This document shows positions 11,487 to 25,176 of a DNA stretch of 33,087 bases, in pieces. This DNA is from Candidatus Aminicenantota bacterium. Lineage in GTDB: Bacteria > Acidobacteriota > Aminicenantia > Aminicenantales > UBA4085. Position numbers and translations under genes: made by a program. Where the stretch lies: NCBI GenBank assembly GCA_016931595.1, contig JAFGEN010000045.1, positions 1 to 33,087 of the forward strand, read 5' to 3'. The notes below the pieces were generated by a model that saw only the letters and a list, made by a program, of their open reading frames with translations, searched no databases and had not been told where the DNA came from. Each line of letters opens with the position of its first letter. The first letter of the stretch is position 1.

Positions 11487-13562
11487 TTATTTTTTTCCGA
11501 GAATTTCGTCAACCAGGGGCTTGGCCTCATAGATATTGGTCAAGGCTTCGATGATTCCTTTGGCGTGGACCATGACCGAACGATTCTGGACGTCGGTATA
11601 AACGAAGCGCGAGGGCAGGCTCTGAATGTTTCCGTCGAACAGGACGCCTGAGAATTCACCCTTGCGGTTGACCACCGGGGATCCGGAGTTGCCGCCGATC
11701 GAGTCGCAGGCGGCAACGAAGTTAACCGGAGTATCGAGCTTGATCCGGGACTTGGCCGAAAGAACCCTTTCCGGAAGCTCATAGGGATCTTTGTAGCCGT
11801 TGCGGGCGGCCAGGTCGAACATCCCCTTGAATGTGGTGAAAAAGGGAATCTTCTTTCCGTTTTCCTCGTATCCCTTGACCGGGCCGAAGCTGAGGCGGAG
11901 CGAACCCGTTGCGTCGGGCGGGATGGCGGCCCCCCTGAGCTTGAACATGGCCTGGGCGATCAAGGCTCCGTTCTTGGTTTCGACCGATTGGACTTCTTCC
12001 TCGTACCTCTTGCGGACTCCCCGGGAAACAGGATCGATCAACCAGGCCAATTTGATCATCGGGTCATTCGACAGGGCCACGGACTGAAATCCTCCGTCCA
12101 AATAGGCCTTCCGGACGTTTGGATCGCCCAGCTCGGTCCCGTTGACGAGATCCTTGGCCACATCCTCGGCCAGGCGGCCGGCAAACAGCCACTTGACCTC
12201 GGCCATGTCCCCGAACTCCTTCTGAAGCTGGATGAGGGAGTCGGTCAGGTTGAAGATTTCGAGGTCCTGGTAAACAGGCGTCACGGTCATCATTCGGCGG
12301 GTGAGAGCTGGGAGGGCGACGTCTCGGAATTCCCGAAGCCGGTCGCTTTCCGGCTTTATCTTTTCGACGGCCAGGCGGACAAGGCTTCGGGCGGTCGAGA
12401 AATACGTCGTCGAAAAACCGGCCCCGCCTTCGAAAAACCGGTAAAGCTTATAAATTTCGGCGTAGGTTTGCTGGGCCCGGGCGACCTCGTCCCAAGCCTT
12501 GCCGTAAAGCGCCTCCATCTCCGGATCGCGGCGGACGGCCTCCCGCAGGTCGTTTTCCTCTTTGAGCTTTTTCTCCATCAAGGCCGCGTCGAGAAGGCCG
12601 GAGTGGTAACCGGTCGTCGCTTTGAGGCTGTTTTCGATCCCGAACAGGGTGCCCAAGGCGAACCGGGCCGCCTCCGGGCCCCGCCTGGAGAAATCCTTGA
12701 GTCCGGCCCGGCGGCGGGCATAGTGAGCCAGGGTCCAGGGATAGCTGACATCCCGGAGAAACTCGAGCTGGGAGTAAGTCAGGAGACGGCCGGTTGAGCC
12801 GGGATGGCCGGAGACAAAGACCAAATCGCCTTCCTTCAGGTTCCCGGTGTTCCATTTCAGATAATGAGGCGTGACATAGGGCGCGTCATTTTCATAGAGA
12901 CGGAACAAGGTGACGTCGAGGTCGTAGCGCGGATAGGTGAAGTTGTCCTGGTCTCCGCCGAAAAAAGCGACCAGGTTCTCCGGGGCGAAGACGAGCCGGA
13001 CGTCGCTGAAGACTTTGTACCTGTAGAGGTGGTACAGCCCCCCGGAAAAGAGGTTGATAACCGAACAGCGCAGGCCGGTTATTTGGGATTCTTCCTTTTC
13101 GATCGCAGCAACGGCCAGGTTCCTGGCCTCAGCCGCCTGGATGGCGTTCATCTCCGGCGTGACGGTCCCGAGGACCCGGGCGGTCACATCCTCCAGGCTC
13201 TGGAGCACCGTCACCTCCATGCCCGGCACCTTGAGCTCCTCGGCCCGGCTCCGGGCATAGAAGCCCAGTTTCATCAGGTCGCGGTCGGCGGTGCTGAGCC
13301 GTTGAATCGCGCTTCGGCCGACATGGTGGTTGGTCAGGACCAGGCCCTCGGGGGCGACGAATGAACCCGAGGCTCCGCCGAACCTGACGGACGACAGGCG
13401 AAGGTGGTCGAGCCACTCGGGGGTGATATCGAATTTGTATTTTGTCCTCAGCATTACGTCCGGGGGCATGTTGAACAGCCACAAACCCTCGTCGCCCAAG
13501 GCGGTCCCGGCCGCAATCAGGGCCAGGGCTCCAAACATCACGCATTTGAACCACGTCTTCAT
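11487..13562 (-). CDS. Secreted S46-family peptidase (dipeptidyl-peptidase 7/11-like)
   Basis: Signal peptide; GLVLTNHHVGRSAIQ, GGDQDNFTYPRYDLDVTLFR, GNSGSPVVNRKGEFSGVLFDGN. Confidence 0.92.
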   Translation of the reverse strand: MKTWFKCVMFGALALIAAGTALGDEGLWLFNMPPDVMLRTKYKFDITPEWLDHLRLSSVRFGGASGSFVAPEGLVLTNHHVGRSAIQRLSTADRDLMKLGFYARSRAEELKVPGMEVTVLQSLEDVTARVLGTVTPEMNAIQAAEARNLAVAAIEKEESQITGLRCSVINLFSGGLYHLYRYKVFSDVRLVFAPENLVAFFGGDQDNFTYPRYDLDVTLFRLYENDAPYVTPHYLKWNTGNLKEGDLVFVSGHPGSTGRLLTYSQLEFLRDVSYPWTLAHYARRRAGLKDFSRRGPEAARFALGTLFGIENSLKATTGYHSGLLDAALMEKKLKEENDLREAVRRDPEMEALYGKAWDEVARAQQTYAEIYKLYRFFEGGAGFSTTYFSTARSLVRLAVEKIKPESDRLREFRDVALPALTRRMMTVTPVYQDLEIFNLTDSLIQLQKEFGDMAEVKWLFAGRLAEDVAKDLVNGTELGDPNVRKAYLDGGFQSVALSNDPMIKLAWLIDPVSRGVRKRYEEEVQSVETKNGALIAQAMFKLRGAAIPPDATGSLRLSFGPVKGYEENGKKIPFFTTFKGMFDLAARNGYKDPYELPERVLSAKSRIKLDTPVNFVAACDSIGGNSGSPVVNRKGEFSGVLFDGNIQSLPSRFVYTDVQNRSVMVHAKGIIEALTNIYEAKPLVDEILGKK

Positions 13563-13968: not shown

Positions 13969-15588
13969 TTAATGGTAACTGCGCTTGGTCCGGCGGGACC
14001 GGTGAAAAGCGACCGCAAAGCGGTGGGCTTCGTCCCGGACATGCTGGATGAGCTTGAGGGCAGGGGAGGTCCGTTCGAGACGAAGACCGCCCGGGCGGCC
14101 TGCGGTATAAAGGGTTTCCTCGCGCTTGGCCAGGGCGGCGACGGGTAGGTTGGACAGTCCGAGCTCGGCCAGAGCCGCCATGGCGGCGGATAATTGGGGT
14201 AGGCCGCCGTCCACAAAGACAAGGTCGGGTTTTGGACGATCTTCCCGCAGAACTCGGGTCAACCGCCTGGTGACGGCCTCCCGGAGCGAGGCGGTGTCGT
14301 CCGGCCCGCGCGTCCCCTTGATGATGTATTTCCGGTAGCCGTCCTTCCATGGGCGACCGTTCAGAAACGTGACCAGGGATGCGACCGTCTCGAGCCCCCG
14401 GGTATGGGAGACATCGAATCCGTCGATCCTGACGGGCAGAATGGATAGACCGAGCACGGCTCGAAGGTCTTCGAGGGCGGACTGGCCGCCTGGGGCCCGC
14501 CGAAGCAGGATTTCGGCGTTTTTCGAGGCCCAGTCCAGAAGCGTCCGGTTCCGCCCTTTTTTGGGGACGGTCAGCGAGACGGCCTGTCCGGCGCATGTTT
14601 TCCAGGCTGCTTGAAGGCCGCCCGCACCGGAAGGAACGACGGGGACGATGATTTTTCCGGGGATGGGCCGGCCGGAATAAAAGCGAGTCAGGAATTCCCC
14701 GACGGTTTTGGCGGGAGGCCGCCCGGGATCCTCGTCCAGGATGGTTTGCATGGATTCCCGGACTTTTCCTCCCCGCATCTGGAAGACCTGGACGGCCCGC
14801 CGCCCACCGGAAACGGCCAGGCCGACGATGTCGAGGTCCTCATTCCGGACCGATATCGCCTTCGGCCGCGTCCGAATCTGTTCGATCGTGCGGAGCAGGT
14901 CCCGAAACCGGCCCGCGTCCTCGTACCGCTCGGCGGCCGATGCGGCGGTCATCCTCTCGCGGAGCACGGCCGCCAGCTCGCCCGTCCGGCCTTCGAGGAA
15001 AAGAACGGCATCTCGGACCGAGGCCCGGTAGGGCTCCCCGTCGATCCGCCCGACGCAGGGAGCGGAACAGTTCCCCATCTCGAACTCGAGGCAGGGACGT
15101 TTCCGTCCACGGAAGACCGTGTCTTCACAGGTTCGCAAGCGGAATCCCTTGGCCAGGATCTGGATCGTTTTTCTGGCCTCCCGGGCGGGGGAAAACGGCC
15201 CGAAATAACGGGCCCCGTCGTCGGCGGCCTTCCGGACCAGGAATACGGCCGGAAAGGGGTTCTGGACGGTCACCCGAAGATAGGGAAAGCTCTTGTCATC
15301 CTTGAGGCGGAGGTTGAATTTCGGCTGGACATGCTGGACGAAATTGTTTTCGAGAAAGACCGCTTCCCGCTCGGATCCCGTGAGGAGAAAATCGATCCGA
15401 TCCGTCTCGGCCAGGATGTTATGGATCTTGGGGTCGTCCGTCGGCTGGAAGTAGGACTTCACCCTGTCCCTGAGGGAGCGGGCCTTGCCGATGTAGACGG
15501 TTTCGCCCGCGGCGTTTTTGAAAAAATAGATTCCCGGCCGGTCGGGGAGGGTGACGGCCGTTTCTTTCAGCAGGTGGGGCGTCCCCAT
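13969..15588 (-). CDS. uvrC: UvrABC system protein C, lacking the C-terminal HhH domain
   Basis: GIYFFKNAAGETVYIGKARSLRDRVKSYF (GIY-YIG), Cys cluster CEDTVFRGRKRPCLEFEMGNCSAPCVG, UVR region, FDVSHTRG, VFVDGGLPQL, RDEAHRFAVAFHRSRRTKRSYH*. Confidence 0.96.
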   Translation of the reverse strand: MGTPHLLKETAVTLPDRPGIYFFKNAAGETVYIGKARSLRDRVKSYFQPTDDPKIHNILAETDRIDFLLTGSEREAVFLENNFVQHVQPKFNLRLKDDKSFPYLRVTVQNPFPAVFLVRKAADDGARYFGPFSPAREARKTIQILAKGFRLRTCEDTVFRGRKRPCLEFEMGNCSAPCVGRIDGEPYRASVRDAVLFLEGRTGELAAVLRERMTAASAAERYEDAGRFRDLLRTIEQIRTRPKAISVRNEDLDIVGLAVSGGRRAVQVFQMRGGKVRESMQTILDEDPGRPPAKTVGEFLTRFYSGRPIPGKIIVPVVPSGAGGLQAAWKTCAGQAVSLTVPKKGRNRTLLDWASKNAEILLRRAPGGQSALEDLRAVLGLSILPVRIDGFDVSHTRGLETVASLVTFLNGRPWKDGYRKYIIKGTRGPDDTASLREAVTRRLTRVLREDRPKPDLVFVDGGLPQLSAAMAALAELGLSNLPVAALAKREETLYTAGRPGGLRLERTSPALKLIQHVRDEAHRFAVAFHRSRRTKRSYH

Positions 15589-21200: not shown

Positions 21201-21349
21201 CTTCCGGCCAGGCCAGGCCGGCCATGGGCGGACGGATGGGCTTCGGGCGGCAGGCCGACAACGGGACTTACAAGGTCACGCTGTCCATCGACGGCAAGGA
21301 TGTCGAGACGAAGAAACTCAACATCCTTCCGGACCCGCTTTTTAAATAG
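18242..21349 (+). CDS. Secreted VPS10/sortilin-like beta-propeller protein with BNR/Asp-box repeats
   Basis: Signal peptide MNKSRFLGGAGALLAMLLCLAAIAPAQ; many Asp-box repeats (VWKSTDAGKTWTNVG, LYKTTDGGKTWTRMG, LYKSTDGGKTWTKLT, IYRSDDQGETWKRM, VWVTTDGGVNWNNIT, VFVTIDRGKSWVPF). ATG at 18242 after AGGAGG. Confidence 0.9.
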   Translation: MNKSRFLGGAGALLAMLLCLAAIAPAQVPTVNDFDQLSWHWVGPVTFSGRITEFAVPRGQTTTWYALAGSGGIWKTVDAGISFEPIFDTYGNMSMGYLAIAPSNPDILYLGTGEPMHARSSSHGNGVWKSTDAGKTWTNVGLTKSYFINKVAVHPKNPDLVYVAAEGKLYDNEMDCERGLYKTTDGGKTWTRMGILPDRGISDFVVDPNNFDIIIAGAYKLYRRTWTYIDRQPGNDLYKSTDGGKTWTKLTKGLPVGKELGKTGLAIYEKNPNIVYARLDEEMNLGLNLRENAANFNMRSGFYREGGSLAKWKSYKLKPEMAKDLKWTHPEAENDQALLAKLNELIRDKEFLTKSGIDLAKLTASARKAYAKDKDLLSAIDDFEASEKVPESDETKGRYQARNRFALAMLYGDLLAPQAPAKRAGYIYRSDDQGETWKRMTENRGAQVNQTEGGYYGRIYVDQTNDKIIYCCDTNVTFSTDAGKTFAVAQWDRGEHSLHVDHRGLWVDPENGKHILSANDGGAGETWDGGKHWHQKSTISAQQFYDIAADNEMPYNVMGGTQDNGAWIGPSQNRNRKGVYAADWTYLPTGDGFYVVRDWWNPEYIYYESQFGSSSRQNLKTGERISLAKRTTPEEAAAGVPAQRYQWNAPIVLSPHNPGIVYITSQFVHRSLSRGEPGSWQTISPDLSRNDPVRQAESKKTNLQYGTIYSFAESVVKPGLYWAGTDDGNVWVTTDGGVNWNNITAQFYDMKTGKAKPNVKGALIPFDRWVKRVVPSRFDEKTCYAAFSGYRTHNEDKTWIFVTRDLGKTWEDISAGMENPVWDLEEDPDNPDVLYIGTDYGVFVTIDRGKSWVPFSTSAPDVIIRDLAVQQRDRDLVIGTYGRGIYIADIAPLKEFKTALFGKDSHLFDVEDTVRWNRLEQRGEDYGVFAKVTNPNIGANLYYYLKADVKNVKLTIKDLEGNVVQELSGDAKKGFHKAFWNLSLRAASGQARPAMGGRMGFGRQADNGTYKVTLSIDGKDVETKKLNILPDPLFK

Positions 21350-21365: not shown

Positions 21366-23387
21366 ATGATGATGAAAGGCCCGATAAGGGTCCTCGTCCC
21401 CGTTCTGCTCGTGATGCTGGCGGCGGGGACGGTTGCGGCCCAGGATTTCACGAAGTATCATAACTACGAGGAAACAACGGCGATCGTCCAGGGGCTGGCC
21501 AAGTCAGCCCCTGGACTGGTCAAACTCTCTTCTCTCGGAAAAACGCAGGGGAACAGGGATCTCTGGGTTTTAGAGATCGCCCAACCCGGCGGACTTCCGC
21601 TGAATGAGCGGCCGGGTCTTCTGATCGCGGCTAATTTTGCAGGCGACGCGGTTTTCGGAAGCGAAATGGCCCTGGCCGTAGCCGACTACATTGTAAAAAA
21701 TGCGTCCAAGCCCGAGGTGAAAGCCTGTCTGGACAATGCGGTTGTCTTTATCATTCCCCGGATGAATCCCGACGGAGCGGAGGCGATGTGGGCTTCCCTG
21801 AAATGGGACCGCCGAACGAATCTCAGCCCGTACGACGACGACAACGATGGACGGACGGACGAGGACGGACCGGAGGACCTCAACGGCGACGGCTTCATCA
21901 CGGTCATGCGTGTCGCCGAACCCGGGGGAACCTATCTGGTCGACCCCAAAGATGCCCGACTGCTTAAAAAAGCCGACCCGAAACTGGGGGAAAAGGGCGT
22001 TTTCGCTCTTTACCTCGAGGGCCGGGATAACGACGGGGACGGGTTCATCAATGAGGACCCGCCGGGTGGGGTCAACCTGAATCGCAACTTCATGCATGAA
22101 TATCCCTATTTCAAGCCGGAGGCGGGCCGGTTCATGGCCAGCGAGAGTGAAACCCGGGCTCTCCTTGCCTGGATAGTCCAACACCGGAACATCGCCGCCT
22201 CCCTGACCTTCGGGGAGAACGACAACCTGATTTCCGGTGGGCGGGAATCCGCCGGGCGGCGCCTTGATCTTTTGGCCGCGGCCGAGGCGAGCATCGAGGG
22301 AGCCTCGAAGACGGGAATATTCCCCGCCCTCGGGTCGATGCGGGGAATGCGGGTCCGCGGCGGCGGAATGGAAATGTCGATCACTCCCGAGATGTTGGCT
22401 ATGCTGATGGGTTCGGGAGGCGGAATGTTCATGATGGGCGGCGGTCCCCAAGGCCGGGACCAGGCTGTCGCCCAGACCTCGGGACGGAGAAATATGCCGG
22501 CCCGAACGGCTCCGACTTCACCCTTAGCCGCCGACCTTGAATACTTCCGCCTTGTCGCGGCCAAGTATGCCGAGATGACCGGTATCCGCCAGGCTCCTCT
22601 CACGGTGAAACCCGAAGGAGCGTTTTCCCAGTACGGGTACTACCAGTTCGGCGTTCCTTCCTTTTCGACCCCGGGCTGGGGTCTTCCGGAGGCGCCCCGT
22701 GCGTCCGGTCAAGGGATGATGACAGCCGGAGGCCCGGGCGGCGGCGGGCAGACGATGATGACCGGCCGGACGGCCTCGTTCCAAGCGGGGCGGGCCGGTT
22801 TTCCCGGAGCCGCCGGAAGCGGAGCGTCGGGTGGCGACTTGCCGCAGGCCGTCGATAAAGCCATTCTCCAGTGGATGGACAAGGAAAAAATCGACGGATT
22901 CGTCCCTTGGACCAAGGTCAAGCACCCCGATTTGGGCGAAGTCGAGATCGGCGGATTCAAGCCTTATGCGGCAACGAATCCTCCGGCCGCGACAATTGCC
23001 GCGGCCGGCAGGTCGCACGCCGAATTCGCCCTTTACCTGGCGTCCCTTTTTCCAAAAGTCCGCATCGAGTCCCTGGAAGCGATCGGCCACGGCGGAGGGA
23101 TTTATCGAATCAAAGCAGCGGTCGTCAACACCGGATTCTGGCCGACGGCCAGCGCCCAGGGCCTTCAAGCCCAATCGGTCAAGCCGACGATGGTCCAGCT
23201 TCAAGTGGATCCGGAGACGGTTCTTTCCGGAAACCCCAAGACCGTCTCCATTCGCCAAGCGTTGAACGGCTCGGGCGGCCGGGCCGAGTTCGAGTGGCTC
23301 ATCAGGGCCAAGGCCGGAGAGAAAATCGCCCTCAAGGTCATGTCCCAAAAGGGCGGGGGCGAAACTCGGACCGTGGTCCTGAAGTGA
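21366..23387 (+). CDS. Secreted M14-carboxypeptidase-like protein, predicted catalytically dead
   Basis: Signal peptide MMMKGPIRVLVPVLLVMLAAGTVAAQ; colinear with the next gene (IPRMNPDGAEAMW, DDDNDGRTDEDGPEDLNGDGFI, NLNRNF) but with Zn-ligand and catalytic positions substituted. Start could be 21366, 21369 or 21372. Confidence 0.82.
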   Translation: MMMKGPIRVLVPVLLVMLAAGTVAAQDFTKYHNYEETTAIVQGLAKSAPGLVKLSSLGKTQGNRDLWVLEIAQPGGLPLNERPGLLIAANFAGDAVFGSEMALAVADYIVKNASKPEVKACLDNAVVFIIPRMNPDGAEAMWASLKWDRRTNLSPYDDDNDGRTDEDGPEDLNGDGFITVMRVAEPGGTYLVDPKDARLLKKADPKLGEKGVFALYLEGRDNDGDGFINEDPPGGVNLNRNFMHEYPYFKPEAGRFMASESETRALLAWIVQHRNIAASLTFGENDNLISGGRESAGRRLDLLAAAEASIEGASKTGIFPALGSMRGMRVRGGGMEMSITPEMLAMLMGSGGGMFMMGGGPQGRDQAVAQTSGRRNMPARTAPTSPLAADLEYFRLVAAKYAEMTGIRQAPLTVKPEGAFSQYGYYQFGVPSFSTPGWGLPEAPRASGQGMMTAGGPGGGGQTMMTGRTASFQAGRAGFPGAAGSGASGGDLPQAVDKAILQWMDKEKIDGFVPWTKVKHPDLGEVEIGGFKPYAATNPPAATIAAAGRSHAEFALYLASLFPKVRIESLEAIGHGGGIYRIKAAVVNTGFWPTASAQGLQAQSVKPTMVQLQVDPETVLSGNPKTVSIRQALNGSGGRAEFEWLIRAKAGEKIALKVMSQKGGGETRTVVLK

Positions 23388-23394
23388 GGCAGCC

Positions 23395-25176
23395 GTGAAA
23401 ACAAAAATCATGATCCTATTTTTGGTCCTTGCGGCCGGTTTGATGCTCTCCGCGCCGCAGGCCCTTCCCCAGAAATCCTCGGACCCGCAATTCAAGGTCA
23501 AGCTCGACTTCAACCGCTGGCACGATACCGAGGAGCTCTACGCCGATTTCCGGCGCCTGGCCTCCGCCTTCCCCAAGTTCGTCAAGGTGTCCTCGATCGG
23601 CAAAAGCCATGACGGGCGGGACATCATGCTGGTGACGGTCAATAATCCCGACACCGGCCCCGAGCTGAGCAAGGCGGCGATGGCCATCGAGGCCAACGTC
23701 CACGGCAATGAGATCCAGGGCGGAGAGGTCTGCTTGTACACGGTCTGGTACCTGATGGAGAATTACGGTCGTCTCGAGCCGATCACCCGGCTTGTGGACG
23801 AGCGCGTCTTCTATCTCATCCCGACGATCAATCCCGACGGCCGGCAGTATTTTATGGATGTGGCCGGCGGACGAGCCCGTTCCGGGCACGTTCCGGTCGA
23901 CGATGACAATGATGGGCTGTTTGACGAAGACCAGCCGAACGACCTCAACGGAAACGGGGTCATCGAACAGATCCGGAAATATGTCCCCGGCAAAGGCAAT
24001 TACCGCCTCAGCCTCTCCGACCCCCGAGTCATGGAACCCGTTCCCTTCGGAGAAAAGGGGGACTACCTCCTTCTCGGGCAGGAGGGAGTCGACGACGACG
24101 GCGACGGCCAGGTCAACGAGGACGACCTGGGCGTATACGACCCGAATCGGAACTACCCCAGCGACTGGCAACCTCATTACATCCAGAGCGGGGCGATGGA
24201 CTACCCGATGCAGCTGCCCGAAACCCGGGCCGAAGTGGAATTTTTAGCGGCCCATCCCAACATCGCCGGCTTCCAGTCCTATCACAACAACGGGGGCATG
24301 ATCCTTCGCGGGCCGGGGTCCGAGGCGACGGGCGAGTACCCGATGACCGATGTGGCCGCCTATGACGAACTCGGAAAGAATGGCGAGCGGATCCTGCCGT
24401 TCTACGAATACATGGTCATCTGGAGCGGGCTTTACACGGTCCATGGCGGAGGCATCGACTTCACCAACGACGGACTCGGGATCCTTTCGTTTTCCAACGA
24501 GCTGTGGAACGGGGAGCAATATTTCACCAGTCCCGAGCTGAAAGAACAGCAAAAAAACCCGAACAGCCCGATCGCCCCAACCCGCTCCCGCTATTTCTTC
24601 GACGATAAGCTCGAATTCGGAGACCAGTTCATGGAATGGACGCCCTTCAGGCACCCGACCTACGGCGATGTTGAGCTCGGCGGATCTTGGAAAAAGACAA
24701 CCAGCCGAGTCCCGCCCCGGTTCATGCTCGAGGAACTGTGCCACCGGAACATGGCCTTCACCCTGTACCAGGCCGACGAGCTCCCGAAGATGAAGATGGA
24801 AGCGGTCGAAACGCAACCACTCGGCGGCGGAATCCACCGGGTCTTCGCCGAGATGTCCAATCCCAAGGCCACGCCGACGATCCTGGAAAAAGCCGGCCGG
24901 AACAACGTCGTCAGGCCGGACCTCCTGACCTTGGAGGGAAAGAGCGTTGAGGTGATCGCAGCCGGCTGGATTGCCGACCGGGAATCCTTCAAGATCAACC
25001 CGACGGTGACGACTCTGATCGACCAGAAGGACCTGAAGAGGATCCTCCTGCGGAACGGCACGCCCGGGAAATCCTCCCGGACGATCATGTACCTGGTCAA
25101 GGGCTCCGGCCCGGTGACCGTGACATACGATTCGGTCAAGGGAGGCGTCATTTCCAAGACATTCGAACTGCGTTGA
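23395..25176 (+). CDS. Secreted M14-family zinc carboxypeptidase
   Basis: GTG start; signal peptide; EANVHGNEIQGGE (HxxE), IPTINPDGRQYFMD, DPNRNYPSDW, GFQSYHNNGG (third Zn ligand), SFSNELWNG (candidate catalytic Glu). Confidence 0.92.
   Translation: MKTKIMILFLVLAAGLMLSAPQALPQKSSDPQFKVKLDFNRWHDTEELYADFRRLASAFPKFVKVSSIGKSHDGRDIMLVTVNNPDTGPELSKAAMAIEANVHGNEIQGGEVCLYTVWYLMENYGRLEPITRLVDERVFYLIPTINPDGRQYFMDVAGGRARSGHVPVDDDNDGLFDEDQPNDLNGNGVIEQIRKYVPGKGNYRLSLSDPRVMEPVPFGEKGDYLLLGQEGVDDDGDGQVNEDDLGVYDPNRNYPSDWQPHYIQSGAMDYPMQLPETRAEVEFLAAHPNIAGFQSYHNNGGMILRGPGSEATGEYPMTDVAAYDELGKNGERILPFYEYMVIWSGLYTVHGGGIDFTNDGLGILSFSNELWNGEQYFTSPELKEQQKNPNSPIAPTRSRYFFDDKLEFGDQFMEWTPFRHPTYGDVELGGSWKKTTSRVPPRFMLEELCHRNMAFTLYQADELPKMKMEAVETQPLGGGIHRVFAEMSNPKATPTILEKAGRNNVVRPDLLTLEGKSVEVIAAGWIADRESFKINPTVTTLIDQKDLKRILLRNGTPGKSSRTIMYLVKGSGPVTVTYDSVKGGVISKTFELR

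Follow-up and report, generated by a model that had tools for sequence, protein, structure and literature searches.

The window analysed here, a 33,087-nucleotide stretch of a Candidatus Aminicenantota genome, carries two adjacent genes for M14-type proteins (Table 1), both of which match Peptidase_M14 in Pfam (PF00246) above the gathering score and neither of which matched an NCBIfam family. The upstream frame runs from ATG 21366 to a stop at 23387 (the longest possible start, at 21300, would overlap the preceding gene), and the downstream frame opens with GTG 23395, 7 nt past that stop. An earlier sequence-only reading had described a tandem of a dead and an intact M14 protein 7 nt apart, with an open frame of about 670 aa in the dead copy; the frames, their spacing and every codon that it named proved to be correct. 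Signal-peptide-like N-termini suggest that both proteins are secreted, and in the intact protein the M14 domain begins near residue 40, with no obvious N-terminal propeptide domain. About 16 nt before the upstream ATG lies the end of a gene for a BNR/Sortilin-like protein, which is probably the first gene of a local operon with the M14 pair. The window also encodes an S46-type dipeptidyl peptidase (11487-13562; PF10459, E 4e-193), which precedes the pair by about 9 kb, and a UvrC-like protein of 539 aa (13969-15588) adjoining a uvrB gene; because the last Pfam match of the UvrC-like protein ends at residue 526, no C-terminal helix-hairpin-helix domain was matched in it.

Table 1 Features of the M14 locus, in window positions.
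Feature	Positions	Strand	Evidence
BNR/Sortilin-Vps10-like secreted protein, ~1,050 aa	18182..21349	+	PF15902, E 3.5e-33
Upstream pseudo-M14 protein (673 aa), with a signal peptide, an M14 fold that lacks the zinc site, and a beta domain at the C-terminus	21366..23387	+	Open frame; PF00246, E 6e-27
Former HxxE motif: A-G-D-A in the window, E-G-D-H or E-G-D-Q in orthologues	21639..21650	+	
NRN, N144/R145-like carboxylate-binding motif (residues 239-241), kept in the dead protein	22080..22088	+	
Position of the third zinc ligand (His196), now Gly; followed by D286-N287, conserved in the dead clade	22212..22214	+	
Position of the general base (Glu270), now Pro	22671..22673	+	
Downstream intact M14 carboxypeptidase, 593 aa, predicted to be secreted	23395..25176	+	PF00246, E 3.5e-37; NRN intact

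The four residues that define an M14 zinc carboxypeptidase (H69, E72, H196 and E270) are present in the downstream protein as H103 (codon 23701, CAC), E106 (23710, GAG), H297 (24283, CAC) and E369 (24499, GAG), which represent the zinc ligands and general base and are invariant across the active clade; we infer that this protein is catalytically active. The upstream protein, in contrast, has A92 (codon 21639, GCA), A95 (21648, GCG), G283 (22212, GGG) and P436 (22671, CCG) in their place, confirming the proposed loss of all three zinc ligands and the catalytic Glu. It has kept the DxDxDG loops and the NRN motif, as was also claimed. N144 and R145 of carboxypeptidase A grip the terminal carboxylate of the substrate, and their counterparts in the dead copy are N239 and R240. 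The alignment of the two copies, described earlier as gapless, is so inside the motifs but not between them, where the dead protein has additional Gly-rich stretches (approximately residues 320-375 and 445-495).

As an independent check of the site assignment, profiles built from relatives were aligned to carboxypeptidase T, whose structure is solved. The active profile matched its H69/E72, H196 and E270, together with the Tyr-bearing loop, whereas the dead profile placed E/H (E-G-D-H), G and P in the same columns, ruling out a misplaced active-site alignment. The sequence-only reading had allowed that other His or Glu residues might occupy the metal site; in the window copy, this alignment revealed no residues of that kind. 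AlphaFold2 models were obtained for the dead protein (pLDDT 85.5, pTM 0.84) and the intact protein (pLDDT 87.3, pTM 0.87), and the top Foldseek matches for both were M14 carboxypeptidases (E 1e-18 for the intact model; E 3e-14 for the dead model against carboxypeptidase T), with carboxypeptidases T and A (PDB 1obr, 2ctb) as the nearest solved folds. Taken together, the carboxypeptidase T alignments and these confident models indicate that the dead protein has lost its catalytic site and is predicted to retain the M14 fold.

A search of related genomes for the same dead/active pair, as had been proposed, revealed that it is conserved across phyla. The window's own genome holds two more tandem pairs (contigs C115 and C94), all three with the dead copy upstream and the intact copy downstream, and the dead protein was matched in all 39 genomes of the relatives search, which covered 38 relatives in addition to this genome. 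We sampled 60 stretches from these genomes and 80 loci from a genome collection (Aminicenantes, Vicinamibacteria, other Acidobacteriota, Bacteroidota, Gemmatimonadota, Rhodothermota, KSB1, and a few MAGs labelled Opitutaceae), and read the four catalytic positions of each copy. The simple dead-then-active arrangement was found at 100 of the 129 distinct loci, and two more had the same order with a split gene; including one locus truncated by a contig end, where a C-terminal fragment of the dead gene is present (L176), the dead gene was upstream and the intact gene downstream at 103 loci, without exception. Four loci were dead-only, each at a contig end. The spacing within the pair was mostly -4 to +50 nt, with frequent 4-nt overlaps. 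No ORF with two M14 units, and hence no fusion of the dead and active proteins, was found among the collected loci; the long ORFs in L046, L063, L110 and L113, candidates for such Rosetta-stone fusions, were overlapping-frame artefacts of GC-rich DNA.

A sample of 99 genomes from the phylum yielded 21 active-clade genes, spread over 18 genomes and each with a dead gene beside it; 20 dead genes lay in the matching adjacent places, and the 21st was cut by a contig end. An apparently lone active gene in G054 was rejected, being at a contig end with the C-terminus of a dead gene present. The spread within the phylum is patchy, with the pair absent from 81 of the 99 genomes at the thresholds used. 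Overall, the dead/active pair spans at least five bacterial phyla, and its recurrence across them, always in the same order, suggests that the two proteins act together.

Other M14 genes were observed in the same material. A separate singleton clade keeps H69, E72 and E270 and has Asp at the His196 position in 10 of 10 copies, residues with which an H-E-D zinc site would be possible; its members are L003:6533-8551 (the window's own genome, C261) and nine relatives (e.g. L059, L082-L083, L085-L087, L089, L092-L093). Another, unrelated tandem of M14 genes, encoding proteins of about 715 and 630 aa, has both members intact, with its halves far apart in the tree (L073:3858-7864, L074, L076-L081, L094, L095; in the window's own genome, L004:235-2391).

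Trees of the M14 copies were built with the ligand columns removed, and one branch separated all dead copies (SH-aLRT 100 in the 43-row tree; support 1.0 in the 105-row tree, 105 dead copies). The dead clade has a single origin by duplication and falls into four subtypes, matching four groups of downstream partners; at the four catalytic sites, subtype I (the window's type) reads EHGP or EQGP, subtype II EHSD, subtype III EHSN and subtype IV EVGD. Comparison of the dead and active trees (89 + 89 proteins) gave 59 of 86 splits in common, 37 of them strongly supported; strong conflict was limited to 4 dead splits, and the dead and active distances were correlated at r = 0.95 (vs 0.11 or less in 500 permutations). 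The two trees thus mirror each other, as expected of a pair that was copied and inherited as a unit; it was duplicated as a unit into the four subtypes, and the correlation denotes shared history, not contact. Relaxed selection, which the sequence-only reading had named as evidence that would count against it, was not found: dN/dS was 0.06-0.23 in the dead genes and 0.02-0.16 in the active genes (simple Nei-Gojobori estimates, with high dS in some pairs), indicating purifying selection. The dead/active branch ratio of the window copy (1.6) lies inside the range of its relatives (0.8-2.6), ruling out relaxed selection on this copy specifically.

Among the flanking genes, homologues of the BNR/Sortilin-like gene adjoin the M14 pair in 42 loci; they share its strand in the window's type and are divergent from it in subtype II. 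They are frequent but not universal, and their orientation changes; no constant third gene was found beside the pair in the collected loci. Since the other flanking genes vary, the two M14 genes are the constant unit.

We consider it probable that the window holds one case of an ancient two-gene module, in which two M14-fold proteins, both predicted to be secreted, serve as obligate partners, one pseudopeptidase and one active enzyme, most plausibly as a heteromeric exopeptidase. The downstream chain would be a zinc carboxypeptidase that trims C-terminal residues, and the upstream chain a pseudopeptidase that arose in one duplication and was retained and selected as its obligate partner. The two chains would associate physically as a heteromeric exopeptidase outside the cytoplasm, where the dead chain would have a non-catalytic job, either binding or presenting peptide C-termini or acting as a stabilising or gating partner. 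The first of these jobs is suggested by N144/R145, which subtypes I-III have retained; because subtype IV has lost them, a peptide-end-binding role common to all subtypes is unlikely. The earlier proposal that the dead protein serves the active enzyme as a partner is supported by the purifying selection, the cross-phylum pairing and the lack of substitute ligands in the carboxypeptidase T alignment.

Linkage and co-inheritance are also compatible with two proteins of the same pathway that make no contact. The dead protein could be a secreted peptide- or other ligand-binding protein, encoded in the same peptide-scavenging operon and forming no complex with the enzyme; tight co-transcription and co-inheritance require no contact, and the former pocket is conserved in the dead clade (positions E92, H/Q95, D286, N287, N239 and R240). 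However, pairing with one partner only, in the absence of a third constant gene, and duplication of the whole pair into four subtypes both suggest a closer dependency than a shared pathway, and no dead copy occurs without an active one wherever the neighbourhood is readable. We thus regard such independent action as unlikely, and favour a heteromeric secreted exopeptidase from its likeness to M16B pairs and carboxypeptidase D.

Ligand loss, although total in the window copy, is not the norm in the family, where ExxH (or ExxQ) has been swapped in for HxxE and AxxA occurs only in the window copy. In most relatives Glu occupies the His69 site and His (or Gln) the Glu72 site, while the His196 site is conserved as Gly/Ser, with D-N or N-T just past it; over the relatives, the four sites read E, H/Q/V, G/S and P/D/N; both acidic DxDxDG loops are near-invariant in the dead and active partners. 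Because the orthologues conserve the swapped ExxH/ExxQ, the family may still bind something at the old zinc site, perhaps a metal. The dead protein could in most lineages be a changed enzyme instead of a pseudoenzyme, with the swapped ExxH, together with D286 or residue 436 as conserved neighbours, binding a metal and catalysing another hydrolysis, consistent with residues that were exchanged, not lost (about 86-100% of the copies in each subtype keep Glu at site 69, and subtypes I-III have H or Q at site 72). This seems improbable to us, as no third ligand is constant over the subtypes (283 is G/S; 436 is P/D/N/Q), site 72 is V/T in subtype IV and Q in many type I copies, and the window copy, with AxxA, still keeps its partner and has not evolved unusually fast. 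Retention of the pair in the window although even ExxH is gone argues that the ExxH site is not essential to the role of the dead protein, at least in this copy. In subtypes II and IV, the E270 site of the dead copies is followed by a conserved insert of ~60 aa that looks helical (GEEKIxAFLKxxGAP...; columns about 620-710 of alignment A2, e.g. L001:5668-7704 and L002:3564-5678), at which position subtype I has Gly-rich disordered sequence.

The dead protein might instead be dedicated to the carboxypeptidase as its chaperone, its inhibitor or a regulator resembling a propeptide, and be released after maturation, given that its gene is translated first and tightly coupled to that of an enzyme with no evident propeptide; but its own signal peptide, complete M14 fold with C-terminal domain, and conserved pocket are beyond the needs of an inhibitor, and we hold this to be highly improbable. 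Decay as a pseudogene, to which the missing catalytic residues and the internal TAG codons in the upstream gene of G022 (and G058) might point, is refuted for the family by the one origin common to 105 copies in several phyla, the purifying selection, the strict linkage, and frames that are open in nearly all copies (mostly 580-750 aa). The TAG codons are in the dead genes L045:5782-7905 (G022) and G058:C28:132459-135547; the active gene of G058 is short too (374 aa), and joint decay of both partners or an assembly error is possible.

The proposed obligate-partner module bears on the debated role of eukaryotic M14 pseudopeptidases: such a compact pair of bacterial genes, inherited as a unit across phyla, would make it testable, with two proteins in E. 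coli, what a dead carboxypeptidase contributes to its live sister. Furthermore, the pairing implies that in many uncultured environmental bacteria the label 'peptidase M14' covers both an active enzyme and an inactive partner, and such mixed labels bear on estimates of their protein-degrading capacity. To our knowledge, dead and active sister proteins that work together occur in only a few other protease families, and no bacterial M14 pseudo/active pair was found in the limited set of literature searched, so that a prior description elsewhere is possible.

The closest solved folds, carboxypeptidase T of Thermoactinomyces vulgaris and carboxypeptidase A, are single active enzymes, whereas the window proteins have Ca-binding-like loops, a dead partner and an additional beta domain at the C-terminus. 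M14 pseudopeptidases that share the fold and the loss of catalytic residues are known in eukaryotes (CPD domain III, AEBP1/ACLP, CPXM1, CPXM2 and Ecm14), and CPD domain III is thought to present substrate to the neighbouring active domains and improves Drosophila viability (PMC11266112). All of those listed retain His69 (Table 2 of PMC11266112), unlike the bacterial dead clade with mostly Glu at that site and His/Gln at site 72; CPD, moreover, is a single chain of three units, whereas the bacterial pair consists of two separate genes. In the prokaryotic two-gene M16B proteases (TTHA1264/TTHA1265, SPH2681/SPH2682 and AlbF/AlbE) and in mitochondrial MPP, a zinc-less subunit completes the enzyme (PMC12731061, PMC11266112). 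The M14 pair is alike in having adjacent genes for homologues with and without the zinc motif, but differs in its exopeptidase fold with HxxE...H in place of the M16 clam-shell endopeptidase with HXXEH, and in that the complex is proven for M16B but putative for M14; the pair can only work like an M16B-type protease and is not a member of that group. Tentatively, the pair may be an obligate heteromeric M14 carboxypeptidase of at least five phyla, in which the reshaped pocket of the pseudo-subunit (swapped ExxH/ExxQ, with D-N nearby) captures peptide C-termini or a metal; the active/inactive two-gene principle of M16B would then have arisen a second time, independently and in an unrelated fold.
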